DNA of 64,000 bases from a virus. The stretch covers positions 1 to 64,000 of IMG/VR virus record IMGVR_UViG_3300035204_001594. One strand, written 5' to 3'. Position 1 is the first letter of the stretch; each line of letters starts with the position of its first letter. Shown piece by piece: positions 8,701 through 34,982 of the stretch. A program made the position numbers and the translations under genes. The notes beneath the pieces are model-generated. The model was not told where the DNA came from. It worked only from the letters and a program-made list of their open reading frames with translations, and searched no databases.

Positions 8701-10378
8701 GTTTAACTAATACATATGTGCCCGCATCGAACTCAGTGGCATTGTTGCCTAGTTGAAGTATATCTCCGCTTGAAGTATTTGTACCTCTAAATAAATAGTC
8801 ATCATCAAACTTTACGAAAATATTGTGCGCTTTAGTACTACTATCTACATGAGCACCCATTCCTGTGGTAAGATGGGATGCGAATGAGTACCCAGGAACC
8901 TTGCTGGTGGAGCTTGAAGCCTCGGCCGCGATAGTCATCTGGGCGATATCTGTTAAAGTTTCGTAAGTATGTGTGTAACTAGTACCGGAAGAGCTTCTAG
9001 ATTTTTTATCAAATTGGCGCAACTCTGTAAATGACAATGTTCCGCTGCCGTCGGTAATAAGTGCTTGTGACGCTGAGGATGCATCTGAAGTGGGGTAGAC
9101 CAGGCCCCCTATAGTTGCATTACTCAGGGAAACCACACCGGATGCTGTAAGGGTTATAGAATTACTACTTAAAGATATAGAATCCGCTTTTTGAACGTCA
9201 AAGCTAGCTGAGGTTCCGGTATCCCCATCCATAGCAACCTTAAACTGATCTCCGTCCGTACCTCCGGAGAAAGAGGTAGCAGTAATGTTACCTCCGCTTT
9301 CAGCGGTACCCGTTACCATATCTCCATTACCTGCGGTACCCGCTGTGTTCATGGTTAGGGCAACGGTATCGTCTGGGTTAAGGGCTGCGGTGACATTTAG
9401 GTCACCAGACGTATCCGCTGCATTTATTGAAGCCGTTAGCTGAGTGGCAACAGCCGCTACAGTATGGGCAGAGCCTACCCCTATGTAAGTAGAGGATGTG
9501 GCATTTGAGGTGCTATAGGTGAGTGTGTGTACGTTGCTGTCTGCGTCTGTAATAATAACTGTTAAGCCATTTAAGGTAGTTCCTGCTGATACACCTCCTG
9601 ACATGCCAGCTACTGTAATATCGGCTGCGTCTGCGGTAGTAGTTATCGTAATGTTTCTATCCGACCCGTCGCTCTGGTTGGTCAAACTAACTACATTAGA
9701 GGATCCCCCTGACCAAACTGAAGTGATATCCAAATTATCTTGAGTATCAGCATAGTTTAGGGAGTATTGAATCGCTTCAGCTATATCCTGGTCTGTGTCG
9801 TCCCCGGACTCTATAAGAATGTAGTAGTCTGCATCCGAGTTTCTGGGGTTTCCGCTAGCCCCGTAGCTAGACTTAAACGTGAATACAACTGTATTATCCC
9901 CGTCCTCCACTGTTATAGTATCATCTAGAAGATTATCTCCCTCTACGTCTTCCAATACGGTTATAGTGCCTGTGGCAGCAGCAGATGACCCCAGTTGAGT
10001 TATCGTAGCTGTGGCCGCTGAGGCTGACCCTACCTTACCTGCAAAGGTTAAACCCCCGGCTCCTGTAGAACCTAAGGTGGCTGTGACGTCGGTATCGGTA
10101 GCTGCGGTTTTAGGGGAGCTTAACGCCAATACATCCTGTAACCTCACATATGTACGCTGATCAACAGCTTCGAGATCTGTGGTGGCCCCTGTAGGGTCTA
10201 CCACTAAAGCAAATCCGGCATCGCTGGTACTTAACCCTGTGGCTAGGGTCAAACCTTCCAGGTAGTCGTTATTCTGCTCCTGAATCGCAATAAAACGTAG
10301 CAGTGAGACGTAGAGAGAGTTGACAGTAGATGTGGTGGGCCTAACTCCAGGCTCATTTACAAGACTTTTAAGAGGCAT
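5798..10378 (-). CDS. Giant tail-fibre-like protein, 1526 aa
   Basis: A long, Ser/Thr/Gly/Ala-rich modular protein typical of phage fibres. Two hinge motifs common in tail fibres are visible (PATKSYID and DASTKLYVD). Internal repeats include a roughly 120-residue module seen twice (GTITVLEDVEGDNLL and GQITVYENTDGDNLI) and a module with NSSDGHNG followed by GGTAGNT. The same modules recur in the 1531-residue protein at 43699-48294. The C-terminal 90 residues differ and may form the tip. A good -10 box (10406-10411) and a CGGAG ribosome-binding site precede the ATG, so it starts its own transcript after the conjugation operon ends. It is expected to bind the host surface. Confidence 0.85.
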   Translation of the reverse strand: MPLKSLVNEPGVRPTTSTVNSLYVSLLRFIAIQEQNNDYLEGLTLATGLSTSDAGFALVVDPTGATTDLEAVDQRTYVRLQDVLALSSPKTAATDTDVTATLGSTGAGGLTFAGKVGSASAATATITQLGSSAAATGTITVLEDVEGDNLLDDTITVEDGDNTVVFTFKSSYGASGNPRNSDADYYILIESGDDTDQDIAEAIQYSLNYADTQDNLDITSVWSGGSSNVVSLTNQSDGSDRNITITTTADAADITVAGMSGGVSAGTTLNGLTVIITDADSNVHTLTYSTSNATSSTYIGVGSAHTVAAVATQLTASINAADTSGDLNVTAALNPDDTVALTMNTAGTAGNGDMVTGTAESGGNITATSFSGGTDGDQFKVAMDGDTGTSASFDVQKADSISLSSNSITLTASGVVSLSNATIGGLVYPTSDASSASQALITDGSGTLSFTELRQFDKKSRSSSGTSYTHTYETLTDIAQMTIAAEASSSTSKVPGYSFASHLTTGMGAHVDSSTKAHNIFVKFDDDYLFRGTNTSSGDILQLGNNATEFDAGTYVLVKPSLRGTNSWPAANTDRAGAVFYDPANSKMHFYTSTAVKEVATADTLSGKFDTSGGTVTGELIVGNLSKSTTSLDLKFTDASDSGFYAKDSGDGSGKAVAFVYNGGSPLFEFAAEGIQGGDISDAQTPFLNFQTGVGEGTTAAKPSYTFTGDDDTGIYRSAADTLSFTAGGTRRASISGAGWDFNNQTIYNIPTPTSSSHPATKSYIDGIVAEGSSDNAVVAYDAATSKYVETSGFKIPASGGYQWAEIGTNSSITGVLTLKHASHSYDTTLTPASLMGEALNFTLPSSDGTTDSVMVTSGSGFLSFKTLGTLGDSRYVQPSSATFTNTVVVADGTQQAPSIIYGTGSTGSYRSTGQAYATFTFGDTEYSSSADETLTLVDTSSTSKTYTIKASGAVAASQEFNRGASASDAATNLATLVNSSDGHNGTINAAANDNAGKVEFTQNTGGTAGNTSITHSADWDSLCDVAPPSAFSKGAANESIVYQLGSYNRIAQFTDTVCEGTNKTSIQGFADTSGRMVTEARSDGGPMFTFVSKESSGLGYAEEAAVAATGQITVYENTDGDNLIGEELDVGDGSNSITFEFTSAYGASGDPKDTSTEYRIKIGDVDNDEDIASRIEYSINYARGEGDLDVQAAWSGSTSTVVTLANDNPGAAGNVNITYSGTTSQIVISGMSGGSNTVQSLRMHAGSSSTPKMEVKSSEILVDNLQIKGLGAPTDNTDASTKLYVDTQISSVIAPASTGTASGQMMLYNTGTSLPEFTSDLVYTADELKIGNTGGSGTSSSLKVSTKYEFIEIAAPLATASSGTGSINPYTLTLPTTLGGSKDVLVASDGSGTLTFERRGGYTTQCIYTVSTLSSNSEWHDYRHDMELTLNNTPTLEVTAGKTAPGGFVATVGYSGNTNVEIGSTSTFFKTTPSFRIRVNGIDLEKGGNAYWLSSTKVRIRVRLKAGDVIEVTGMENADMTNMGF

Positions 10379-10405: not shown

Positions 10406-10411
10406 ATTATA
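10406..10411 (-). promoter_or_regulatory. -10 promoter element for the fibre gene
   Basis: On the minus strand the hexamer is a perfect TATAAT, about 28-33 nt upstream of the fibre ATG and directly after the T-run of the upstream terminator. No consensus -35 is visible at the right distance. The placement between a terminator and a gene with a good ribosome-binding site makes a promoter plausible. Confidence 0.5.
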
Positions 10412-10420
10412 CAATAGTTA

Positions 10421-10455
10421 AAAAAAGGGGCTGAATTCTATCAGCCCCCCTTTTT
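10421..10455 (-). terminator. Intrinsic terminator ending the conjugation operon
   Basis: An 8-bp stem (GGGGCTGA with TCAGCCCC) with a 6-nt loop is flanked by an A-run on one side and a T-run on the other. In minus-strand RNA the stem is followed by TTTTTTAAC, the form of a Rho-independent terminator. It starts 10 nt after the stop of the E1-like gene. Confidence 0.8.
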
Positions 10456-10464
10456 CGCTACCGG

Positions 10465-11214
10465 CTAACCGGCCACTAACTCTTCTGCTCTCTTCGGAAC
10501 AACTCTGTCTTCCATGGACAGCGTGCTCATATCGTTGAGATTCATAGAGATATACTCCTCTACAGGAATACCCCTCATCCAGTTGCTAATGTGTGAGATA
10601 AGCAGTCCCGCAGCCACAGAGCAGGGGTAGATCATAGATCTAGCCGAGCAAGGAGCCTGAAAGGCGTCCTCCTCCTCGAACAGAGACATAGGGTAATTTT
10701 CAAAACTATCCCATCCTTTATGAGCTCCATACACTTGAACAATGGGTCCCATCATACGAGCGTCTAGGAATAGGTCTAAGTTTTGATGGCCTTTAGAGGC
10801 TTCCCAAATTTCTTTACGTGTGGTTATAGAGTCCACGCAGCTGATAACTACTAACTTATTACTACCCGGGGCCAGGTTTTTACCTGCGTCCAGGGTTCTC
10901 TGAAGCATAGAGGGGTCGAATTTGCGGGCATACTCAACCACACTAATCTCACTGTTGGTTTCCCTAACCTCACGCCCTAAAGCTTCCACTTTCTGCATGC
11001 CCAGGTCTTGTTCTTTATACCCCTGAGCCGCGAGGTTGTGAGGTTCTACGTCATCTGGGTCCACCAATACAAGTGTACCAAATCCTGTAGCCGCAGCGAT
11101 CATAGCGGTAGGTCGCCCTAAAGCACCCACCCCTACTAACAATATATGAATTTTATTAAGTTCTTCAACAGGTAGAATAGACGTCTGACGATCGTATCTA
11201 TTAGATATACTCAT
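10465..11214 (-). CDS. E1/ThiF/MoeB-like ubiquitin-like-protein activating enzyme
   Basis: Predicted to adenylate the C-terminal glycine of a ubiquitin-like protein with ATP and pass it on as a thioester. The 249-residue protein has the ThiF/E1 Rossmann signature: nucleotide loop GVGALG (28-33), acidic strand end LVDPDDVEPHNLAAQGY (50-66) and CVDS (126-129). It lacks the CxxC zinc pairs common in MoeB and ThiF. Two cysteines near the C-terminal third, APCSARSMIYPC (Cys189 and Cys198), are candidates for the transfer cysteine. I chose the ATG at 11214 because it overlaps the upstream JAB stop in an ATGA; an ATG six codons upstream exists. It is the last gene of the four-gene module and is followed by a terminator. 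The family is confident; activity on the neighbouring modifier is inferred. Confidence 0.92.
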   Translation of the reverse strand: MSISNRYDRQTSILPVEELNKIHILLVGVGALGRPTAMIAAATGFGTLVLVDPDDVEPHNLAAQGYKEQDLGMQKVEALGREVRETNSEISVVEYARKFDPSMLQRTLDAGKNLAPGSNKLVVISCVDSITTRKEIWEASKGHQNLDLFLDARMMGPIVQVYGAHKGWDSFENYPMSLFEEEDAFQAPCSARSMIYPCSVAAGLLISHISNWMRGIPVEEYISMNLNDMSTLSMEDRVVPKRAEELVAG

Positions 11215-12413
11215 GCTGACACCCACGTGCATTCCGCGCGAATATCTGCCGCTGCCTCTGTTTGACCGTTATCCTCCAAATAAAGTATAAAGGCCTCTTC
11301 TTCAAGTTGACCGGTTTTCACATGGATATTTAACGCTTTTAAGATATCCGCAAGTACAAAGTGGGTATCTCCTACCCACGGCTCTACGGAAATCTCATTT
11401 TTAGCACATATACCTAAGAGAGCTGCTGAGCCAACTTCTCCAATTTCTGCAGCCACCTCTAAGTATATATCCTCTAGATCCTGAGGGCCACACCCGAACT
11501 TATCCGCACATTCTTTGTCGCTTATAAGAACAGATTTGTTGTTTTCTGAGCAGGTTATAAGGGTGTAAAAAGGATCCATATCAAACCCATCCTCATACCT
11601 ATCTTCAGACTCTACTCCGAAGGTCTTCGGTCCGCTTGGTGGAAAAGGATCGTCTCTTAGATCCAGATGACTTTGCTGAGCCTCAAAATAAGCTACATCG
11701 TCCCACGTAGAGTGGTTATACACCCCATAATCATCTCCCCCTGCATCACATGCATCTGAATCCTTACCAAAACTACTACTAGATTCCCTAGAGACGGGAG
11801 GTAAAACACTTTTAATCTTACCCTTGCCCTTATTAAACCACTTATTTGTGTAGACAACTTTAAGTGGCGCTACAAGTTCTAAACTTTTAGCCCATTCTCC
11901 TGATGTATCTTTTATACTACTTGTCCGCTGGACAATATCATCGATGGCTTCGGTCTCAAAGTCTATTTTAATACTCATCTCTGTCTCAACCCGTCCTAAT
12001 AAAGGATCGGTAGCTCGAAGGCGGGCATACATATCCCCAGATTGGGATAGTATAAACATAACTAACTTGGCCTTACCTCCAAACTGGTTATTACCTGTAA
12101 ACGTACTTTCATCAGTAGATGAAGGTTTGGCACCACATCCTTTTGGATGTGTGTGCCCCCATATTAGAGCAAACTGGTCTAGGTCGTACCCCTGTTTGTG
12201 CATATGTGCCATATATTCAGCTAAAGCATCGTCGTCAAATTTATTTAAGGTTAGGTTAGCCTCTTGGCCGATAACGTTGATGTCTTCGACATACAGAGGG
12301 TTGTCCTTGCGGCCTAGGCACCAGAAGCCGACCTCCGTATCGGCTAGCCTAGCTATATACGTCATTTTTATAAACGCATATGTAGAAAAGGTTAAAGTGG
12401 GTTTGGTTAACAT
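11211..12413 (-). CDS. JAMM/JAB-domain metallopeptidase (deubiquitinase-like)
   Basis: Predicted zinc isopeptidase that trims or removes a ubiquitin-like modifier. The N-terminal 130 residues carry the full JAMM signature: Glu27 in TEVGFW, His87 and His89 in GHTHP, then PSSTD with Ser98 and Asp101, the spacing H-x-H-P-x6-P-S-x2-D. The remaining 270 residues are acidic and unrecognised, ending in a roughly 90-residue helical region. The start overlaps the stop of the E2-like gene by 7 nt (ATGTTAA) and has a GAGGA ribosome-binding site, and the end overlaps the E1-like gene, so all three are probably translated as a coupled unit. Candidate substrates are the Gly-Gly-Cys tail of the small protein at 14442 and its conjugates. 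Confidence 0.93.
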   Translation of the reverse strand: MLTKPTLTFSTYAFIKMTYIARLADTEVGFWCLGRKDNPLYVEDINVIGQEANLTLNKFDDDALAEYMAHMHKQGYDLDQFALIWGHTHPKGCGAKPSSTDESTFTGNNQFGGKAKLVMFILSQSGDMYARLRATDPLLGRVETEMSIKIDFETEAIDDIVQRTSSIKDTSGEWAKSLELVAPLKVVYTNKWFNKGKGKIKSVLPPVSRESSSSFGKDSDACDAGGDDYGVYNHSTWDDVAYFEAQQSHLDLRDDPFPPSGPKTFGVESEDRYEDGFDMDPFYTLITCSENNKSVLISDKECADKFGCGPQDLEDIYLEVAAEIGEVGSAALLGICAKNEISVEPWVGDTHFVLADILKALNIHVKTGQLEEEAFILYLEDNGQTEAAADIRAECTWVSA

Positions 12414-14380
12414 GTGGTTTCCTCGTTTTCTTTCATGTTGTTAGTTAAGAGGGCTGGTGTTTGTTGTAAAATTTCTAAATTTAAAGCGGCGATAGCTTGA
12501 CTTGCTAAGTCCCGTTCTTCTAAGTGAAGTTTAAGGACATAGTGTTCAATGCCTGGGTCGTTACTCAAGGATAAGCGTACACAGTCTTTTCTACGACCCC
12601 ACACAGCGTAGTAATCAATAGGATAGGGTCGCATTCTATATATGCTCTTAGTAGAGGCGCTACATAGTTCGCGGTACACTACATCTGATAAGCGTACGTA
12701 AACCGATTCACCGTTTTCGTCCTCTTCAGCGATATCATCCTCGTGTATTAGTGCGATGTTTCCCGCAAAAAATGTTGGCGGATACTCGTTATTATGCGGA
12801 TGCTCGTCACTAGAGGGGGCAGAGTACGCCTCTAAGAGTGTAAGTGTGGCTCGAATAGGCATACTACCAGAACCGTAAACGATCTCGTCTTCTCGCGATC
12901 TAACATCCTCAAGTCTTTCAGGAATCCATAAGCGACGTATATCATCGTTCCCAATAAAATAGGTTGTTCCCCCTATAAGGCTATCTAAGTGTAGGGTAAC
13001 GGCATCATCAGTGCGGATAAAAGTATCTTCACCGTCGGCCCATGCAGCTTCACTCATTGGAATATAACGGTCTTCTAACTCTGAGTACTCGCAGCAGCTT
13101 TCGTGATACCAATCCCCGTCCGAAAGTACATCCTCCTCTGTATCCACTTCGTCTCCACAGTCGTAGCAGTAACAAGTATCTTCGTCGTCTCCGCCATGCT
13201 CACGTCGCCACATATCTCGAGTCATTGTAAAGCGCTTTAATGCGGCATAAGTATCACTGTCCTCATAGTTATTTAACACTCCTATAACTATATCTAAACC
13301 TCCCCCTAAGTTAAAGGTATTGGCTGCATCATTGTACACCTGGGAAGCGCGTCCGAAACATAGATTTCCTGACTCCCCCACATGAGGGTGTATATACCCG
13401 TTGGCTGCAGATTCGTCCTCTAGGTTTCCCAAGCGGTGTATGTTTATTGCAGTGTCACTGTATGTTCCTATACATTTAGTAAATTTGTTATAGTCCCAGG
13501 AAATCCATATATCTCTAAAGGTGTGTGTAGTCTCTACCTCACCTTCCGTACCCCTATAGTGATTTAGGGTTATAGGTCTTAAGGCGTACCAAAAGGTTCG
13601 AGTTTTCGGGGAGTATAAGCAGGCTCTACATAAAGGATTATAATAACCTTTTGTAGCGGCATACAGATCCCTAAACACACCGGTAGGTGCTTTAGCAATA
13701 GAGGCCTGTAATTGTTTGTAGATTTCCGAGGTCTCAGAGCTGTTTTCGTAGAAGTTATCTGCTTGAAACCGACCATTCTCCAGAAATTTATCCACAGAAT
13801 TACTGAGATTTGAAACAATATAATCCACATCTCTCCTAAATTGGCGACGGAAGACAGGGACGTAGAGCTCGTCTAGGCGTAGAGGGCAAGCTTTGCGGTT
13901 AGAGGTGTTTTGCCGAGTCCAGTAGTCGTCTACAAGTTTATGGGCAACGTCATCGGGTGATCGATCTCCTAGTATCAGGTCCCTTACGAGGTCAGAACTA
14001 GGTCTATTCGGGTACGCTGCAGCTATATACTGCCCAAGACTTTCTAGCATAACATATCGAGCTTTGCGGCCTATGTTTAGTAGTTCGTATATGTATTCCC
14101 TGTGGGCGTTAGCCCGCGACTCGCGTAGTCGTGAGGTTAGATTGGCTACCCCCTTCATGTGTAGGCGGCAAGCTAATCTATAAATAGATGTATCGGACAT
14201 ACCGCTTACCGACACCCAACTAGAAGGGCTATCGTCGTGAGAAGGCCTAATCTGATTGCTATACACTCCTCTAATCATGTCTTCACGAGCCGCTATGTCT
14301 TTCTCTACGCGTGCTTTTAATATATCTGGTGCTAATGGGTTTTGTAAAAGATTTGTTACGATTTTATTGTGTTTGTTCAT
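12407..14380 (-). CDS. E2-like conjugating protein with fused LIM/RING-like zinc knuckle
   Basis: A 657-residue multidomain protein. Around residues 326-343 it has GYIHPHVGESGNLCFG, the HPH-x(n)-G-x-x-C pattern of prokaryotic E2-like (UBC/RWD-fold) proteins, in which Cys341 would carry the modifier thioester. About 60 residues later comes C-x2-C-x17-H-x2-C (Cys405, Cys408, His426, Cys429), the spacing of one LIM finger or treble clef, related in form to RING-type E3 zinc knuckles. The first 300 residues are helical and unrecognised and could bind substrate. The frame is open from a TTG at 14395, but I chose ATG at 14380 because an AAGGA lies 5 nt upstream of it and the TTG falls in a hairpin. 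It is flanked by the modifier and JAB genes. The E2 call rests on motif plus context; the E3-like role is inference. Confidence 0.72.
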   Translation of the reverse strand: MNKHNKIVTNLLQNPLAPDILKARVEKDIAAREDMIRGVYSNQIRPSHDDSPSSWVSVSGMSDTSIYRLACRLHMKGVANLTSRLRESRANAHREYIYELLNIGRKARYVMLESLGQYIAAAYPNRPSSDLVRDLILGDRSPDDVAHKLVDDYWTRQNTSNRKACPLRLDELYVPVFRRQFRRDVDYIVSNLSNSVDKFLENGRFQADNFYENSSETSEIYKQLQASIAKAPTGVFRDLYAATKGYYNPLCRACLYSPKTRTFWYALRPITLNHYRGTEGEVETTHTFRDIWISWDYNKFTKCIGTYSDTAINIHRLGNLEDESAANGYIHPHVGESGNLCFGRASQVYNDAANTFNLGGGLDIVIGVLNNYEDSDTYAALKRFTMTRDMWRREHGGDDEDTCYCYDCGDEVDTEEDVLSDGDWYHESCCEYSELEDRYIPMSEAAWADGEDTFIRTDDAVTLHLDSLIGGTTYFIGNDDIRRLWIPERLEDVRSREDEIVYGSGSMPIRATLTLLEAYSAPSSDEHPHNNEYPPTFFAGNIALIHEDDIAEEDENGESVYVRLSDVVYRELCSASTKSIYRMRPYPIDYYAVWGRRKDCVRLSLSNDPGIEHYVLKLHLEERDLASQAIAALNLEILQQTPALLTNNMKENEETTC

Positions 14381-14393
14381 AGCTTCCTTAGTC

Positions 14394-14423
14394 AAAGCGG
14401 GGGGTAGTCAGACCCCCCGCTTT
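14394..14423 (-). terminator. Strong hairpin between modifier and E2-like genes
   Basis: Twelve perfect base pairs (AAAGCGGGGGGT with its complement) enclose a 6-nt loop. In minus-strand RNA the hairpin lies between the stop of the modifier gene (14442) and the AAGGA of the E2-like gene, and ends in GCTTT. It could be a partial terminator or an RNA end-stabilising structure, allowing more modifier than enzyme to be made. Confidence 0.7.
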
Positions 14424-14441
14424 ACGTGTATCTAGGTTATA

Positions 14442-14750
14442 TTAGCAACCACCTTGGATTTTAGTAGGGGTTACTTGTACACTATCACCTGGGTTTAAAG
14501 TTTGCCCAGCTTCAGCATTCATGCCATTAATTTTAACTATAAAGTTTTTAGGCGCTGCGTTGATTTTAAGATTATCTTTAAAGAACGAGTCAATAGTAGT
14601 TCCTGAAGGAATCACGTAGTCTTGACTAGTGTGGTTATATACGTCTAAGCAAGAGACGTTTATAGTAGAAGATGTGTTGGTATCTGTGCCGCCAAATGTA
14701 GTGTTGCAGGTTTGTGTTTCGGTTGCGCCGAATGTTGATTCAGGGTTCAT
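14442..14750 (-). CDS. Ubiquitin-like (ThiS/MoaD-fold) modifier protein ending Gly-Gly-Cys
   Basis: A 102-residue protein. The first 28 residues are a Thr/Gly-rich tail with a short repeat (TFGATETQT, TFGGTDTNT). Residues 29-99 follow the beta-grasp order of ThiS, MoaD and ubiquitin: strand INVSCLDV, strand DYVIPSG, helix TIDSFFKDNL, strand FIVKINGMNAEAG, then LNPGDSVQVTP. The C-terminus is Gly100-Gly101-Cys102. A Gly-Gly end is what E1 enzymes activate; the extra Cys would first have to be removed, a job suited to the neighbouring JAB protease. A GAAGGAAG ribosome-binding site lies 10 nt before the ATG. No thiamine or molybdopterin genes are nearby, which argues against a sulfur-carrier role. 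The fold is inferred from pattern, not from a search. Confidence 0.82.
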   Translation of the reverse strand: MNPESTFGATETQTCNTTFGGTDTNTSSTINVSCLDVYNHTSQDYVIPSGTTIDSFFKDNLKINAAPKNFIVKINGMNAEAGQTLNPGDSVQVTPTKIQGGC

Positions 14751-19403: not shown

Positions 19404-22277
19404 TTACTCTTTTATGTGTATTCCGTGTTGTTCTAATTCTTTCTCCGTTAAAGGGCTTCCCCATCGAAGAGAAATTTCTGGGTCAATCTGTAGGGTTAGG
19501 TCGTATCCGGGGATGGTACATCTATCGCACATACACACCTGTAATGCCTGTACGGTTTCCTGTACCTCCTCGATAGGACAAGTTGTTAAAATTTGGTCAT
19601 GAACACTCATTAAAATTTTGTAGTTTAACGTAGGTTTATCTACGCGTCTATAGTCATATAGGTTAACTAGGGCTTTAGACATAAGATCGCCCACAGTACC
19701 TTGAATAGGCATGTTCATAGCTTGACGTTCTTGATGGGCTATAACCTCGTGGTCATTCGTCTTCTCGAAACGTCTCCTACGACCTAAAGCGTTGGTGACA
19801 AATCCTTGAGTTACTACTAATGCTTTCTGATCCCCTAACCATTGAGTTAGTTGAGGATACGTAGCTTTAAATTTCTGAATAGCTTCCTGGGATTCCTCTA
19901 CCGTAATATTGACGCCCTGTCTGTAAACTTCTTCCTTAATAGCGGCTGCTCCTCGACCATACGCAATACCAAATGTAATAGTTTTGGCTATAGTCCTTTT
20001 AGGAGATTCGTCTAGGTGCTTAATCCATGCCTTAGTGCCTTCAGTCCAGTTGTTAGGCATAGGTTCGAGTTGGAACATATCTAAAGCAGTTTCTGAGTGG
20101 AAATCTACACCAGGGGCAGAAAGACGTTCTTGCATATTAGTGTCCCCGCTTAGCCAAGCCATAACATATAACTCAGCTCCTACCCAATCGGCATCTACAA
20201 AGCACCACCCCGGCTCAGGCACAAAACAAGAACGAATAGGCGGTACTTCTTCTTCAAATACATTAGATAGTACGGCCTCGGCGCTTTTAGGGATCTGGGC
20301 CATATTAGGATTAGAGTGGCCGTACCTGCCGGTCTCTACAGTCTGCCTAATACGACAGTGTACTCGTCCGTCTGGCCACACCTTGCTTAATATACCTTTA
20401 GTCATATCTACAGACTCCCCCTCATCTGCGTTAATATACTCTCCCGTAAATGTTTTCACAGCTTGACTGACTGCGCTGTAATACAAAACATTTTTAAGGA
20501 ACGGGTCATCGGGATTTTCTATAAGCAGAGTCTGAATACTTGCTTTATCTGTAGAGGGCCTACTTTCGGCAAGCAGCCCTTTCGATAAAACATCTACCCA
20601 TTTCTTGCCGTCCCCTGTTCGTTTAACAGGAGTGTAGACCTTTAGGCGGGCGTCGTCAGGACTTTTAATAGTCACTACCCCCTGAGCATTAGGCTTCCCT
20701 ACACTAAACAAAGCCTCTACCTTTTGATCCGATGAGTCGGGATTGAATTCAGGCCAGTTAAGCTCGTCTCGTAACGCTTGCTTAAGCTTATTTTTACCTT
20801 CTGTATATAATTTGGCTAATACGATCATACGTTCGTGATCTACCCCTATCCCCTCTAACTCCATTTCTAGAATGGGAAGAGTTGCGGGCATGGATATATT
20901 CTCAAACAATGATAGCAGATCTTCATGACCCTCGCTGCGCATTTCTGCGTACTGTTGTACAAATATTCTGAAAGTTGTATCTGCGTCTGCTGCAGCATAG
21001 GGAAGCAGTATCTCGGAAGGTACGTGTTGGAATCCATTCTCCTCAACATCTGCCTTATTTTCCTTAATCCATTGTTTAACGTCCTTATCGTACCTTCCCA
21101 AAGAGGTGTACCTAAGGGTGTAGACTTCTAAAGCCTGCTTCCAGTTTTCGTTTAGTAGGTGTCCCGCTAAGCCGGTGTCCCAGCCTTTCGTAACATTTAC
21201 GCCCAGCTCTACGCCGTACTTATATAACCACGGGAGGTCTGCTCGTATAAAATGTCCTATTAACCGAGCCCTTTCATGCTCAAACAGCTTCCGTAAAATT
21301 GTCCAAGCTCTTTCAAGGTTTTGCTGCAGCTCGGAAGCATTACCGTCCTCGTCGGTAAATATAGGCACAATAACCTTTCCGGGAGACCAGGCAATTTGAA
21401 TGGTCCTTAAGCATCCATCTAAGATTGTTTGCCCTGCCCACTCGCAATCGACCGCCAACCACCCGTGGTACTCGTCAATAATGGTATTCACCCAGGACTG
21501 CAGTGATTTTAAGTCGAGTATATAGTGGTACTCTGGGGTAATGGTAGATGTTTTAAGGTCCGGTGTTTCCGCCTTGGCCATAGCTCGTTTAAGTGTACTC
21601 AGATCTAATCTTAATTGGTCCCTGTTTTCAGGCTTATGTATTAGGGAGCTCGGGTTTAGGCACGCTATGAATGTAATGCCTTCATATTCATCGCTGTCTA
21701 CTGTAAAACTCATTCCTTGATAGTCCGAAAGCTTAGCCTTAACTCCGCATATTGCTTTAAGAGCTTTGGCCCCTAGAAGGACTACGATCTCAGGGTTTAC
21801 TAAAGATATTTCGGTAGATATAAGTTCTTTAGACCAGTTTATCCAAGTTTTTGGGAGAGCGGCTTTTTTAATAAACATTCCGTGTTTAACCGCAGTGGTG
21901 TAATAAAAGTCTGTGCAATCTACCCCCTGATCTGAACAAGCTTCTGTGAACTCTTTAGTGTAATCTCCTAGCCAAAGTACCCCTAAGTCTTCTTCAATGG
22001 GGTTAACGCAATCTCCGATAACCATAACTTTATGAGGACGGAGGGGTCCTCCTTTCTTATTAGACATCTGTCGAATCTGGGTTGCATCAGTTCGTTCAAC
22101 AAATTTCATGGTGCGTCCCGGCAATGTTTTAACAATGTGAGTAGATCCCCCTTCTTCTACTGTAACTACCGTAGGCTCACATAGGAGTTTAGCGGTAGCG
22201 TCAGCTGTATTAAGAGATTGTTGAACTTGTAGTCGGGATACCAGGTAATTATCGGTAAGCGGCTCTATAGTTGTCAT
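19404..22277 (-). CDS. DNA polymerase A with N-terminal uracil-DNA-glycosylase-like domain
   Basis: Replicative DNA polymerase of family A, 957 residues. Residues about 80-235 look like a family 4-type uracil-DNA glycosylase (VMVIGDCVNPIEEDLG, DFYYTTAVKH, NPEIVVLLGAKALKAI, LNPSS). The 3'-5' exonuclease follows: VDCEW (Asp277 and Glu279), GHFIRAD and YAAAD. The polymerase has motif A DADWVGAEL, motif B R-x3-K-x3-F-x3-YG (RTIAKTITFGIAYG) and motif C VHDQI. Phe occupies the position of E. coli Phe762. Motif C has Gln where Glu is usual after the catalytic Asp. A UDG-like N-terminal extension on a phage PolA is known from the SPO1 group. The UDG motif 2 has Asn-Pro-Ser in place of His-Pro-Ser, so catalytic activity is uncertain. 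Confidence 0.95.
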   Translation of the reverse strand: MTTIEPLTDNYLVSRLQVQQSLNTADATAKLLCEPTVVTVEEGGSTHIVKTLPGRTMKFVERTDATQIRQMSNKKGGPLRPHKVMVIGDCVNPIEEDLGVLWLGDYTKEFTEACSDQGVDCTDFYYTTAVKHGMFIKKAALPKTWINWSKELISTEISLVNPEIVVLLGAKALKAICGVKAKLSDYQGMSFTVDSDEYEGITFIACLNPSSLIHKPENRDQLRLDLSTLKRAMAKAETPDLKTSTITPEYHYILDLKSLQSWVNTIIDEYHGWLAVDCEWAGQTILDGCLRTIQIAWSPGKVIVPIFTDEDGNASELQQNLERAWTILRKLFEHERARLIGHFIRADLPWLYKYGVELGVNVTKGWDTGLAGHLLNENWKQALEVYTLRYTSLGRYDKDVKQWIKENKADVEENGFQHVPSEILLPYAAADADTTFRIFVQQYAEMRSEGHEDLLSLFENISMPATLPILEMELEGIGVDHERMIVLAKLYTEGKNKLKQALRDELNWPEFNPDSSDQKVEALFSVGKPNAQGVVTIKSPDDARLKVYTPVKRTGDGKKWVDVLSKGLLAESRPSTDKASIQTLLIENPDDPFLKNVLYYSAVSQAVKTFTGEYINADEGESVDMTKGILSKVWPDGRVHCRIRQTVETGRYGHSNPNMAQIPKSAEAVLSNVFEEEVPPIRSCFVPEPGWCFVDADWVGAELYVMAWLSGDTNMQERLSAPGVDFHSETALDMFQLEPMPNNWTEGTKAWIKHLDESPKRTIAKTITFGIAYGRGAAAIKEEVYRQGVNITVEESQEAIQKFKATYPQLTQWLGDQKALVVTQGFVTNALGRRRRFEKTNDHEVIAHQERQAMNMPIQGTVGDLMSKALVNLYDYRRVDKPTLNYKILMSVHDQILTTCPIEEVQETVQALQVCMCDRCTIPGYDLTLQIDPEISLRWGSPLTEKELEQHGIHIKE

Positions 22278-31991: not shown

Positions 31992-34982
31992 ATGGCAGAT
32001 TCAAAAAAAGAAAAATTTAAAGAAGAAGGTAAGTCGGTTTCATCCTTTATCGATCAATTACCCGACTGGGCAAAAGATACGGTTCAGTCCTGTCAGCACT
32101 ACAGAGACATAGATAAGATCGACGATAAAGTATTTTCCCTACCTACAGATCAGGTAAAGGCGCTAAACGATGCTATTCCGGAGGGTCTGTACGAATCTTT
32201 CGTTAAACAGATGGTGTCCCAGAAAAAGTGGGACGAGTCCCCTATAAAGTTAACGTCAATGTTGAGGCTAAACGGCAAGCCCTTCACGCTGTCTAAGCAT
32301 AGGTTTTTTGAACCCATGTTTTACTCAGATCTACCCCCCAGGATGCTTTTGGTCTGCGCTCGGCAGGTGGGTAAGGCGCTGGCGTTAAGTACGCCTATCC
32401 CTACACCTACAGGTACTGCCTGTATAGAAAGCCTTCGAGTAGGGGACTTTGTACTAGGCCCGGATGGGGAGCCCACAGAAGTTATAGCGACATCCGATGT
32501 AATACCTGACGCAACAGCCTACAAAGTGTGTTTTAATGACGGTACTTCAGTATCCGCTTGCGAGGATCACCAATGGACCGTATATCAATCTGTTAAAAGG
32601 CGCGGAGGCAACGAGAAAGACTACCTAGAGTGGAGAGAGCAGACCTTAACTACCAAACAGTTATCTGATAGGGGTTTACGTAAACCCGGAGGTGAGTATA
32701 GATTTTCACTACCTCAAGTACACCCTGTTCAACTTCCCGAAGCGGACCTGCCCATAGAGCCTTACGCTTTTGGGGTTTGGTTGGGCGACGGTCACTCAGC
32801 AGGGGGAAGAGTATCCTCCAGTGTTGAAGACTCAGCTATATCTGACAGAATTAAAGAATCTTATAAGGTATCTGGCCCAAATTTGATACCCTCCTCCTCA
32901 AAAGCTACATGGTTCTCAATACACGGCATAAGAAAGCACTTGGTAGCTCTAAGTGTATTTAATAATAAACACATACCCCTCGCATACTTACGCTCCAGCC
33001 TTATCCAGAGGCAGGCGCTTCTACAAGGAATTATGGATACCGATGGAACTGTTTCTAAAAAGGGGCTGTGTAGTGTGGGCTTCTCCAATAAACGTCTCGC
33101 AGATGATACGGCCCAATTACTAAACAGTTTGGGCTTTATTGTAAAGAGGCGGACTAAGCAACCTAACTACCCTGGATCCAAACTTCACTACCTGATGAGC
33201 TTTACAGCTAGAGCAGACTTCCCTGTATTTCATCTACCTCGAAAATTTGCTAGACAGAAAACAAAAGAAGAGGCTAGAGGTAAACCTCGCCAAACCCTAC
33301 ATAAGAAAATTACATCCATCGAGCCTGTAGATTCGCAGCCTATGTGCTGTATAGAGGTATCTAATGAAGATAACCTATATCTGTGTGGAGAAGGGTGGAT
33401 TCCTACGCATAACAGCACCCACATGGCAGCACAGGGTGTACTACAGGCAGCTGCACTAGATCGATTTAAGGTTCTGTTCTTGGCTCCGCAGTTCGAGCAA
33501 ATTAGAAGGTTTTCTCATCAATATATAAAGCAGTTTGTTCAAGAATCGTTTTTAAAGGACATGATCACAGACCGAACCACTATGGATTCTGTGCTTCAAA
33601 AGACTTTTAAAAACAAGTCAGAGCTATTCTTTTCCTTTGCTTTACTTAGCGTAGAGAGGGTTAGGGGTTTGGCAGTAGACGCTATACGGCTGGATGAGAT
33701 TCAGGACCTTCAACCAGACTTTCTCGATATTATTCGTGAATGTATGTCAGCTTCGTCTAGGCGGTCTGAGATGTACACAGGTACTAGTAAAACTGTAGAT
33801 AACCTAATAGAGCAACTAAGGCTCCAGTCTTCTCAAGCAGAATGGTTTATGAAGTGCGAGGCCTGCAATCACTGGAACATCCCTACCGTAGAGGGCTCAG
33901 GCCCAGGCTTAGGAGTAGGGGCCATGTTAGGACCAGAAGGTCTTTGCTGTGCCAAATGTAAACGATTAATTAACCCTGAAAAGGGAGTGTGGATACACAA
34001 GTTCCCGGAGCGTGTGGGTTTCTTCCCCAGTTACCATATTCCTCAAGTTGTAGCCCCTATACATTACGCCAATCAGAAAAACTGGAAATCTCTACTCTAT
34101 AAAAAGGAAGAGATGGCTCCCGCCAGATTTATTAATGAAATTTTAGGGGAAGCGTGTGACGAGGGGCAGCGCTTAGTTAGTAAAACGGAACTAGAAACGG
34201 CGTCCTGCCTTAACGTAAACACCTTGGAAGAGGCTTTGAAGGTCAGGGGCAGATATACCGACGTCATACTGGGGGTAGACTGGGGCGGTAAGGGAGAACG
34301 TATGCAATCCTTTACAGCAGTGGCTGCCATGGGTCTGAGACCCGACAGTAATCGACTCGAGGTATTCTTTGCAAAGGTATACCCTGCACTTATGGATCCC
34401 GTAGAAGAGACTAAAAGTGTGGTGGGTTTATTCTCTGCCTTAAAGGGTAGTGGTATCGCACACGATGTGGCCGTAGCGGGCGAGATTCGCCGTAGTCTTA
34501 TGCGTGAAATAGGCCTTAATGAGCAGAACCTATTTAACTGTAGGTACTCGCCGGGAATGATTTCAAAGCACTTTATAGAATTTAAACCCGCTAGCGACGT
34601 TAATCCCGTTAGTTACTACAATATCGATAGAAATAGGTTACTAGCTGCCGTGTGTCTATCTATAAAAGGCAAACAATTGCTTTTTCCCGACTATGAATCC
34701 ATGGGTAATGAAGCGGGTAAGAACATCATGGACCATTTTTTAGCCATCTACGAAGAGACAACCGAAACTGCTCACGGCAGGGAGCAGAAATTCATTAAAC
34801 GTAACCCCGGTATGCCTGACGACTTCTTACATGCCTGCGGTTTCGCATGCGCTACTATGTGGTCTCGTTACGAGCATACCATGCCTCGTCTAGATGAGGT
34901 GTTTATGGACCCTATGACGTCAGAGGAGATCGATTTAATAGAGCCTCCGCGTTTTGATAGCAATGATTTTTGGGCGGATTAG
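31992..34982 (+). CDS. Terminase large subunit (TerL) interrupted by an intein
   Basis: ATP-driven DNA packaging motor and genome-cutting nuclease. The precursor is 996 residues; removal of residues 129-474 would give a 650-residue mature protein. The join rebuilds the Walker A motif CARQVGK-STHMAAQG. Walker B is RLDEIQD. The C-terminal nuclease has VDWGGKGER (first Asp) and MPDDFLHA (late Asp). A CEAC...CCAKC zinc-like pair (about residues 618-660) lies between the ATPase and nuclease domains. It is the only plus-strand gene in its neighbourhood, divergent from the replication operon. A hairpin follows its stop. Confidence 0.95.
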   Translation: MADSKKEKFKEEGKSVSSFIDQLPDWAKDTVQSCQHYRDIDKIDDKVFSLPTDQVKALNDAIPEGLYESFVKQMVSQKKWDESPIKLTSMLRLNGKPFTLSKHRFFEPMFYSDLPPRMLLVCARQVGKALALSTPIPTPTGTACIESLRVGDFVLGPDGEPTEVIATSDVIPDATAYKVCFNDGTSVSACEDHQWTVYQSVKRRGGNEKDYLEWREQTLTTKQLSDRGLRKPGGEYRFSLPQVHPVQLPEADLPIEPYAFGVWLGDGHSAGGRVSSSVEDSAISDRIKESYKVSGPNLIPSSSKATWFSIHGIRKHLVALSVFNNKHIPLAYLRSSLIQRQALLQGIMDTDGTVSKKGLCSVGFSNKRLADDTAQLLNSLGFIVKRRTKQPNYPGSKLHYLMSFTARADFPVFHLPRKFARQKTKEEARGKPRQTLHKKITSIEPVDSQPMCCIEVSNEDNLYLCGEGWIPTHNSTHMAAQGVLQAAALDRFKVLFLAPQFEQIRRFSHQYIKQFVQESFLKDMITDRTTMDSVLQKTFKNKSELFFSFALLSVERVRGLAVDAIRLDEIQDLQPDFLDIIRECMSASSRRSEMYTGTSKTVDNLIEQLRLQSSQAEWFMKCEACNHWNIPTVEGSGPGLGVGAMLGPEGLCCAKCKRLINPEKGVWIHKFPERVGFFPSYHIPQVVAPIHYANQKNWKSLLYKKEEMAPARFINEILGEACDEGQRLVSKTELETASCLNVNTLEEALKVRGRYTDVILGVDWGGKGERMQSFTAVAAMGLRPDSNRLEVFFAKVYPALMDPVEETKSVVGLFSALKGSGIAHDVAVAGEIRRSLMREIGLNEQNLFNCRYSPGMISKHFIEFKPASDVNPVSYYNIDRNRLLAAVCLSIKGKQLLFPDYESMGNEAGKNIMDHFLAIYEETTETAHGREQKFIKRNPGMPDDFLHACGFACATMWSRYEHTMPRLDEVFMDPMTSEEIDLIEPPRFDSNDFWAD
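32376..33413 (+). other. Class 3-type intein with LAGLIDADG endonuclease domain
   Basis: A self-splicing protein element of 346 residues within TerL. It starts with Ala (ALALSTPIPTPTG) directly after the Walker A Lys, and ends PTHN before Ser475. With no Cys or Ser at position 1, the standard pathway is excluded. The residues that define class 3 inteins are present: Trp in block B two after the block-B His (DHQW, intein residues 64-67), Cys in block F (the second Cys of MCCIEV, intein residue 325), and Thr in block G before the His-Asn end (intein residues 344-346). Two LAGLIDADG-like motifs, FGVWLGDGH and LQGIMDTDG, indicate a homing endonuclease that would target intein-free TerL genes. Confidence 0.92.

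Follow-up and report, generated by a model that had tools for sequence, protein, structure and literature searches.

Four adjacent genes, in the order modifier–E2–JAB–E1 and all on the minus strand, lie within positions 1–64,000 (the window, the whole stretch analysed) of the IMG/VR virus record IMGVR_UViG_3300035204_001594, whose full length is 77,320 bp. The open reading frames (ORFs) were found where a preliminary description, made without database searches, had placed them (Table 1). Pfam and PHROGs scans of window proteins indicate that the record also carries a terminase, a UvsX-like recombinase, primase, helicases, DNA polymerase A (PolA) and ribonucleotide reductase (RNR); given UvsX, PolA, primase and RNR in the window, that description's placement of the cassette within a phage replication operon is fair. 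Its claim that the three enzyme genes overlap, at ATGTTAA and ATGA, holds with a correction: JAB overlaps E2 by 7 nt at ATGTTAA, and the ATGA junction uses Met7 of the E1, at 11214; counted from the first E1 ATG, the E1/JAB overlap is 22 nt. The E2 gene likely begins at ATG 14380, which is preceded by AAGGAAG, rather than at the listed TTG 14395, which falls inside an RNA hairpin (−24.3 kcal/mol, z −4.0, with 0 of 200 shuffles equally stable). This hairpin may be a partial terminator, a processing element or a 3′-stabilising element, and could set the modifier:enzyme ratio, a function that is inferred only. The operon was also said to end immediately before a fibre gene, which is right by position. 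The strong terminator between them, however, makes the link incidental, and the hinted functional tie failed: the fibre gene has a separate start, and the adjacency is not kept in relatives.

Table 1. Features of the cassette and its flanks, in window coordinates (E-values are those of leave-window-out profiles)
Feature	Position	Strand	Details
Ubiquitin-like modifier	14442..14750	−	102 aa; beta-grasp model; 9.5e-11
RNA hairpin	14393..14424	−	13 bp; between modifier and enzyme genes
E2-like protein	12407..14380	−	657 aa from ATG 14380; 662 aa from listed TTG 14395; 1.8e-10
E2 active-site motif H331-P-H-V-G-E-S-G-N-L-C341	13358..13390	−	Residues 336–346 in TTG numbering
Cys/His cluster C403-x-C405-x2-C408-x18-H427-x-x-C430	13091..13174	−	After E2 core
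JAB/JAMM metalloprotease	11211..12413	−	400 aa; 2.2e-28
JAMM core H87-T-H89-P...S98-x-x-D101	12111..12155	−	E27 upstream at 12333–12335
E1-like (ThiF-fold) activating enzyme	10465..11214	−	249 aa from ATG 11214; 255 aa from 11232; 7.8e-47
E1 Cys195, candidate transfer cysteine	10648..10650	−	Numbering from ATG 11232
Intrinsic terminator closing operon	10419..10455	−	GGGGGGCTGATAGAATTCAGCCCC-T7; −34.2 kcal/mol, z −4.7
TATAAT after terminator	10406–10411	−	Ahead of fibre-like gene starting at 10378

The modifier consists of an N-terminal extension of ~25 residues, a beta-grasp domain and the C-terminus VTPTKIQGG-C. An AF2 model predicts a single ubiquitin-like (Ubl) domain, beta-beta-alpha-beta-beta(-beta), and the Foldseek matches displayed for it, at probability 1.00 and E 1e-3 to 8e-3, comprise ubiquitin, SUMO and ISG15 together with small Ubl/beta-grasp proteins of archaea or bacteria. 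The family profile matches archaeal SAMP2 at 7e-6, in an alignment that reaches through the terminal GG, and also matches TtuB. On the predicted fold and the GG-C end, the protein belongs among beta-grasp Ubls; processing of its tail is inferred. Across the family, 0–4 variable residues follow [TS]P-x-[KRD]-[VI]-x-G-[GA], as in the relatives' C-termini KVEGA-GSRN, KIDGA-SR, RIEGA-H, KVAGG-NAC and KDIDGG. Two relatives (L026 and L044) encode poly-modifiers of three head-to-tail Ubl repeats each, resembling polyubiquitin, with internal repeats ending KVEGA (L044) or NIKAA (L026). The variable tails and the repeats call for a trimming protease, and JAB adjoins them.

The active-site motif of the E2-like protein, HPH-x4-G-x2-C, has the spacing of HPN-x4-G-x2-C in human UBE2D2 (HPNINSNGSIC), with the Cys at His+10 in both; the window protein has HPH where a classical E2 has HPN. 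The P, H, C and following G (P-H...C-x-G) are invariant in 17 homologues and the first H is conserved in at least 90%. The earlier numbering, Cys341, fits the ATG start (C346 from TTG). Scored against UBC, the E2 family profile reaches 34.9, versus at most 14.3 in 40 column shuffles, and the alignment extends to the PNPDDPL helix region. The window's trio or clade alone gave no significant match to UBC, and the match of the window protein is transitive because it is seen only via the family profile. An AF2 model of the full-length protein with 17 homologues was of low confidence (pLDDT 43) and was left out of the fold search; no Pfam E2 family scored above cut-off, and an alignment profile search of the PDB returned only coiled-coil chance matches. 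A UBC-like domain around Cys341 is thus supported by conserved motif, spacing and a transitive profile match, without a confident three-dimensional model to confirm it. Zinc-finger cysteines after the E2 core are a trait of the window's clade: CxxC arrays occupy the corresponding place in four relatives (L044, L026, L079 and L080). The second metal site of these zinc fingers is absent in the window protein, whose Cys/His cluster could be a remnant or a compact zinc finger, and maybe an E3-like part, a role that is inferred.

In the JAB protein, H87, H89, S98 and D101 are invariant and E27 is conserved in at least 90% of 14 homologues. Its family profile matches RPN11 (1e-10), with CSN5, BRCC36 and JAMM1 also among the matches; from these residues and this profile we infer a JAMM deconjugase with the signature E...HxH...SxxD. 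The E1-like protein has a Pfam ThiF match (2e-26), and its family profile matches Uba1 (1.8e-17) as well as UBA5 and ThiF. Conserved positions include R15, Q16, GxGxxG, DxDxVExxN (DPDDVExxN in the window), K81 and D134, and Cys195 is invariant in the phage E1s aligned: every one of the six in the initial alignment has it, and so do those of crAss and a 595-kb phage. An E1 role is inferred from the adenylation fold, the ATP-site residues and the absence of a rhodanese.

A sulfur-carrier pathway of ThiS/MoaD/TtuB type, serving a cofactor or a thiolated nucleoside, would also use an E1 of this kind: the protein resembles ThiF/MoeB, and SAMP2 and TtuB, both matched by the modifier family, have a role in sulfur transfer as well. 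This alternative is nonetheless very unlikely. The window E1, unlike the ThiS/MoaD systems, has no CxxC zinc pairs; no rhodanese partner was found in the viral record, while 13 of 14 control genomes gave matches; no ThiG, MoaE or TtuA-like gene was recognised among the window proteins scanned; and in 29 of 39 cases the E1 comes with a JAB and with an E2 whose active site is of UBC type.

The preliminary description therefore fared well on its individual claims. The beta-grasp modifier ending GGC, the E2-like HPH...G-x-x-C motif (HPHVGESGNLC), the JAMM/JAB protease with the full E...HxHP...SxxD signature (all catalytic residues are present) and the ThiF/E1 fold with candidate transfer cysteines (the ThiF match and the invariant Cys195) all held. 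The outcomes it had named as refuting were not observed: a ubiquitin-like fold was found in the modelled 102-residue protein, a UBC-like fold around Cys341 is supported in the limited sense given above, and nothing points to sulfur transfer. Its inference that the four genes form a full conjugation pathway set is supported, with ORFs and motifs confirmed and the chemistry inferred only.

Recognition of these genes does not rest on the window's own sequences. When every ORF of 30 aa or more in the 77-kb record is searched with profiles built from relatives, the window sequences being excluded, only the four cassette ORFs match. The window proteins are only ~20–38% identical to their relatives, yet they retain all JAMM residues, the E2 Cys, the ATP-site residues of the E1 and the GG at the end of the modifier. 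This retention makes a degenerate or decoy system without catalysis very unlikely, although HPH in place of HPN and the loss of the second zinc site could be read in its favour. Searches of the viral collection with single proteins (E2, E1 and short E2/JAB segments) found no relatives, and annotated phages gave no tblastn match to the E2 or the JAB; only E1 alignments recovered relatives from the viral collection, the first of these alignments being too diverse for use in a pattern search.

Complete Ubl/E2/JAB/E1 cassettes surround 29 of 39 distinct phage E1s in the first scans, a count that is descriptive, as the HMMs were trained partly on those loci and the loci were found via E1. Five further four-gene cassettes occur in the window's clade, and JAB adjoins E1 in all but 4 of the 39 E1 clusters; two of these exceptions are contig ends. 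Carriers include cultured phages, gut phages among them: crAss001 (gp79–gp76), DAC17 and Flavobacterium phage Fpv1. The existing annotation of the cassette E1 is "thiamine biosynthesis protein" in both crAss001 and Fpv1. The crAss versions have a modifier with a C-terminal extension and an E2-like gene adjoining JAB and ThiF. Deep branches of the E1 tree are weakly resolved, with support for the trio of the window, L026 and L044 (100/99), a marine clade, a crAss-type clade and a few pairs. When genomes were scanned with the E1, a single true cassette turned up, on a contig of Desulfovibrio sp. An276 (L054), the rest being mostly ThiF/MoeB/TcdA-like or unclear. An E2 profile found no matches in three individual genomes or in 399 genomes from a single bacterial phylum, and this search is uninformative: it had no positive control and missed the Desulfovibrio cassette itself. 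The open-access literature searched held no earlier account of a phage cassette of this kind; most subscription papers were outside its scope, and this absence is not proof. The gene content shows that phages of several groups carry complete cassettes, widespread but unrecognised; their function is inferred.

The cassette resembles several known systems and differs from each. BilABCD, a bacterial ISG15-like anti-phage system, likewise comprises four separate genes for modifier, E2, modifier-trimming JAB-type DUB and E1 (PMC11354881, citing Millman 2022 and Chambers 2023), in an order equal by role. The Bil modifier, however, has two Ubl domains (ISG15-like), whereas the phage modifier has one in the window and three in L026 and L044; the phage cassette lies in a replication gene cluster, and its E2 carries HPH-x4-G-x2-C followed by a zinc finger. 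PADLOC 2023 models gave no Bil-named match to the cassette proteins, and kinship with BilABCD is by analogy of gene order and roles, without direct sequence comparison. Class 6d of Iyer et al. 2006, which we take to be the NCBI PRTRC family, also has Ub-like, JAB, E1-like and E2-like proteins as four separate components, but its E2s lack a conserved His before the Cys (PMC1779556), which the phage E2 has (HPH); among PRTRC models, only PRTRC_ThiF matched a cassette protein, at 26 bits against a cut-off of 144.75. The polyUbl operons of class 6e recall the triple repeats of the window's relatives, but in class 6e the E2/RWD domain is inactive and E1 carries a fused JAB, whereas the phage E2 has its active-site Cys and the phage JAB and E1 are two distinct proteins. 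The tail-assembly proteins TAPI (Ubl) and TAPK (JAB+NlpC) of Lambda/T1 are a phage-encoded Ubl with JAB, but without E1 or E2 and in a tail-assembly cluster (PMC1779556). CBASS pairs E1 and E2 chemistry (Cap2) with a JAB (Cap3), and PADLOC E1–E2 models match the E1 domain of the cassette (2e-15); Cap2, however, is an E2–E1 fusion that has no dedicated Ubl and targets a cGAS-like enzyme, whereas the phage parts are all separate, and no CD-NTase was seen in the subset of window ORFs scanned with Pfam/PHROGs. Among archaeal systems, SAMP2 provides the closest solved structures to the modifier family, and JAMM1 is among the JAB matches. SAMP systems are not known to use an E2. The Caldiarchaeum Ub-E1-E2-RING system is a further archaeal parallel; the archaeal UBC proteins retrieved are classical, with an HPN-type motif, in contrast to the phage HPH.

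The analysis shows which genes are present, their order and overlap, the folds or family profiles of their products and the conservation of the catalytic residues. Together these features are likely to represent a complete phage-encoded, JAB-matured ubiquitin-like conjugation cascade, in which every chemical step is inferred and no substrate or conjugate is known. JAB would remove the residue or residues after the modifier's C-terminal GG (one Cys in the window); the ThiF-type E1 would adenylate the exposed glycine and hand the modifier on, possibly via Cys195; the E2 would accept it as a thioester on Cys341 and attach it to target proteins, perhaps with help from its zinc finger acting as an integral E3-like part; and JAB may also remove the modifier from targets. 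Against this full reading stand the poor model of the window E2, its transitive UBC link, the lack of a Pfam E2 match, HPH for HPN and the lost second zinc site.

The genomic neighborhoods bear on what such a cascade may do. In at least three separate phage groups the cassettes lie among DNA replication or recombination genes: a Rad50/SbcC-like ATPase, an SF2 helicase and a DnaB-like helicase in L026 and L044; primase/DnaB in L007 and L036; primase, UDG, resolvase and RNR in crAss phages; and in L049, PolA adjoins the cassette. The link is not universal, because neighbors in the marine (L017) and L028 groups have no assigned function. Because of these neighborhoods, the most likely role is to tag proteins of the phage or the host while the phage replicates and takes over the cell, which remains a tentative proposal, slightly more open to doubt than to belief while the substrates are unknown. 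It is also possible, though unlikely, that the cassette serves counter-defence, with JAB above all stripping, or the system competing with, host Ubl modifiers (Bil, CBASS Cap2/Cap3) on phage proteins. Host Bil conjugates Ubls and thereby impairs phage assembly (Hor 2024, cited in PMC12660748), de-ubiquitinase-like arrays in Borgs have been interpreted as counter-defence (PMC12660748), and JAB stands beside nearly every E1. However, a deconjugase alone would suffice, stripping needs no full conserved Ubl, E1 and E2 with intact active sites, and several cassettes sit in replication clusters, outside recognised anti-defence islands. Superinfection exclusion, in which a Bil-like cascade would tag structural proteins of competing phages, is likewise unlikely. 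In its favour, the gene order is that of the host-borne BilABCD (roles from PMC11354881), and L026 and L044 possibly carry two cassettes each, but the location is again in replication clusters and no association with known exclusion genes was seen.

Beyond the preferred reading of a phage-encoded cascade lies a bolder one, which may as readily fail as hold: that unrelated large dsDNA phages (crAss-like, Flavobacterium, marine 150–180 kb and the window's clade) own complete cascades that form a lineage of their own, in some cases including polyubiquitin-type precursors and E2–zinc-finger (E2–E3-like) fusions, and use them to tag phage or host proteins in genome replication—viral ubiquitination in bacteria, and not host defence. 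Studies of ubiquitin-like tagging in bacteria have treated it as a weapon of the host (CBASS, Bil); in the present case phages appear to own the whole pathway, and widely. Its carriage by cultured phages makes it possible to ask in laboratory phages which proteins are tagged and whether the pathway is needed for phage growth. With such cassettes, some viruses would bring their own protein-tagging pathway into infected bacteria. A further question is whether viruses had a part in the spread or the shaping of ubiquitin machinery, polyubiquitin-type precursors and E2–zinc fusions included.

Standard models name only E1 in the cassette (Pfam ThiF, 2e-26); with them the JAB protein reached 0.13 at best and went unnamed, and the E2-like protein had no match. 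Relatives were therefore sought through E1 alignments, and family profiles were then built. Run on the whole 77,320-bp viral record, profiles made without the window sequence pick out exactly the four cassette ORFs (E-values of 1.8e-10 for E2, 2.2e-28 for JAB, 9.5e-11 for the modifier and 7.8e-47 for E1), which lie head to tail on one strand. The next-best matches in the record have E-values of 0.2 or worse for the E2, modifier and E1 profiles, and the JAB profile has no second match there.

Cassette ORFs in the window
Feature	Position	Strand	Type
Modifier	14442-14750	-	ORF
E2-like	12407-14395 as listed (TTG start)	-	ORF
JAB	11211-12413	-	ORF
E1	10465-11232	-	ORF

ATG 14380, preceded by AAGGAAG, is the better choice of start for E2, because TTG 14395 sits inside a hairpin of 13 bp (-24.3 kcal/mol, z -4.0). 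It is possible, by inference, that this hairpin between the modifier and enzyme genes sets the modifier:enzyme ratio. Of the gene overlaps claimed in the preliminary description, E2/JAB at ATGTTAA held, and the ATGA junction of JAB and E1 holds if E1 starts at Met7. The claimed position directly before a fibre gene also held; an intrinsic terminator, GGGGGGCTGATAGAATTCAGCCCC-T7 (z -4.7), and then TATAAT intervene between E1 and the fibre-like gene, which is therefore, as inferred from sequence, likely to be a separate transcription unit.

The modifier's ubiquitin-like fold, likewise proposed beforehand, held on a predicted model and its PDB matches. The model is beta-beta-alpha-beta-beta-beta (core pLDDT about 70-88), and the matches displayed were ubiquitin, SUMO, ISG15, Mth1743, TtuB, RnfH and further beta-grasp Ubls; the family profile matched SAMP2 (6.6e-6), with the alignment reaching its terminal GG. 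Within the window's clade, modifiers end in [TS]P-x-[KRD]-[VI]-x-G-[GA], with small departures, followed by 0-4 residues (KIQGG-C in the window; elsewhere KIDGA-SR, RIEGA-H, KVEGA-LN, KVEGA-GSRN, NVKGA and DIDGG). Two relatives, L044 and L026, have three head-to-tail domains. One internal repeat ends KVEGA in L044, resembling a polyubiquitin precursor, and one ends NIKAA in L026. crAss-type modifiers carry K[IV]KSG or similar and then a long extension. Variable tails, head-to-tail domains and crAss extensions together imply that a trimming protease is needed. In cr106_1 (L008 5749-6952), an HNH-like ORF interrupts the crAss modifier gene directly after KKIKSG, the presumed trimming site.

Across the JAB homologues, both H residues, S and D of the JAMM signature never vary, and E hardly does; the top profile matches are RPN11 (1e-10), CSN5, archaeal JAMM1 and AMSH/BRCC36-type enzymes. 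In Flavobacterium phage Fpv1 (L040 2665-4957), an inserted opposite-strand ORF, likely an intron or homing element, splits the JAB gene just before the HSH motif. E1 conserves Arg15, GxGxxG, DxDxVExxN, Lys81 and Asp134, with Cys195 invariant, and its profile matches Uba1 (1.8e-17), UBA5 and ThiF; CxxC, looked for in the window E1 sequence, is absent.

All 17 E2 homologues share P-H...C-x-G, the first H being nearly invariant. Most relatives share with the window a cysteine at His+10, and the window also has Gly at +7, the spacing of UBE2D2 (HPNINSNGSIC). Against a UBC profile of UBE2D2 and 16 archaeal UBC proteins, the E2 family core profile scored 34.9 (probability 66, E 5.6e-5, single comparison; 40 column shuffles <=14.3, reversed profile 11.6), and the alignment extends into the NPDDPL region of UBC. 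Profile links join the window, L026 and L044 to the marine group (1e-10), the five-member window clade to the marine group (4e-16) and the marine to the small-phage group (5e-13). Because the clade profile alone has no significant match to UBC and the AF2 model of the window protein is poor, its UBC fold is inferred only, through these links and without a confident model. CxxC arrays follow the core at a near-fixed place in L044, L026, L079 and L080, all of the window's clade; at this place the window protein retains a C-x-C-x2-C...H...C cluster, but the pairs that come next are gone; an E3-like role for this region is possible, as a guess.

Modifier, E2 and JAB lie within 6 kb of E1 for 29 of 39 distinct phage E1s (first scans only, clustered at 90%); two of the ten without a full set are at contig ends. 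The last scan, of the window's clade, added five full sets (L079-L082, L084) and one of another type (L086). Two phages carry two complete, differently built cassettes each (L026 3-2939 and 5381-10660; L044 3-2101 and 4429-10669), with a Rad50/SbcC-like ATPase gene between those of L026. Cultured carriers are DAC17, Fpv1 and crAss001, where the annotations of gp79-gp76 include 'metalloprotease domain' and 'thiamine biosynthesis protein'. Among 84,980 prokaryote species genomes, a pattern-limited scan turned up a single clear cassette, the only one met in a bacterial assembly (Desulfovibrio sp. An276 contig, L054 7029-12037); its E1 (743 aa) has a long C-terminal extension, and prophage status is not established.

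A variant cassette in three phages (L005 6855-8192, L024 9473-10552, L025 10927-12021) comprises an E2-like protein with PHI or THI-x4/5-CF, JAB and E1, followed in 3/3 by a reverse-transcriptase-like gene. In L005 (1829-2344 and 9625-12181), the JAB-E1 pair is surrounded by numerous small proteins with a common C-terminal CxSLL tail, which are possibly tags or substrates. In L007 (7042-9222), seven tandem small proteins directly after E1 share the tail D[IV]E[AL]MI or DIELII.

Bacterial Ubl-E1-E2-JAB operons were catalogued by Iyer 2006, whose relevant sections list, for phages, the lambda/T1 tail Ubl+JAB pair alone (PMC1779556); JAB, ThiF, Ub-like and E1-like do not occur in a 2021 jumbo-phage overview from the same group (PMC7824862). 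BilABCD has the window's gene order but is a host defence system (PMC11354881). Borg elements carry many deSAMPylase-like JAMMs, with no cascade described in the sections bearing on JAMMs (PMC12660748). No phage-borne Ubl cascade was found in the literature searched, and as far as that search goes the complete cascade is a new form of known Ubl-conjugation systems.

The cassette's parts are present and conserved; every reaction is inferred. JAB would trim the modifier tail, E1 would adenylate the exposed glycine, E2 would accept the modifier as a thioester on Cys341 and then attach it, and JAB would also remove it again. Gene context offers the best clue to role: in several groups the cassettes are surrounded by genes for DNA polymerase, primase, helicases, recombinase, a Rad50-like ATPase, UDG, resolvase and RNR, with no recognisable replication genes nearby in the marine or L028 groups. 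As separate observations, the window's DNA polymerase A (19404-22277, minus strand, 957 aa) is an unusual UDG-PolA fusion, a uracil-DNA glycosylase-family domain (PF03167, residues 83-219) preceding the 3'-5' exonuclease and polymerase, and its terminase large subunit (31992-34982, plus strand, 996 aa) exceeds its matches in length, and these cover different parts of it; an intein or additional domain may account for the excess. That the cassette serves sulfur transfer is very unlikely and ranks lowest among the roles weighed; inter-phage exclusion, also unlikely, stands below a counter-defence role, which is possible. Above these we place our committed reading, held at slightly under even confidence, that the cassette tags replication- or takeover-related proteins.
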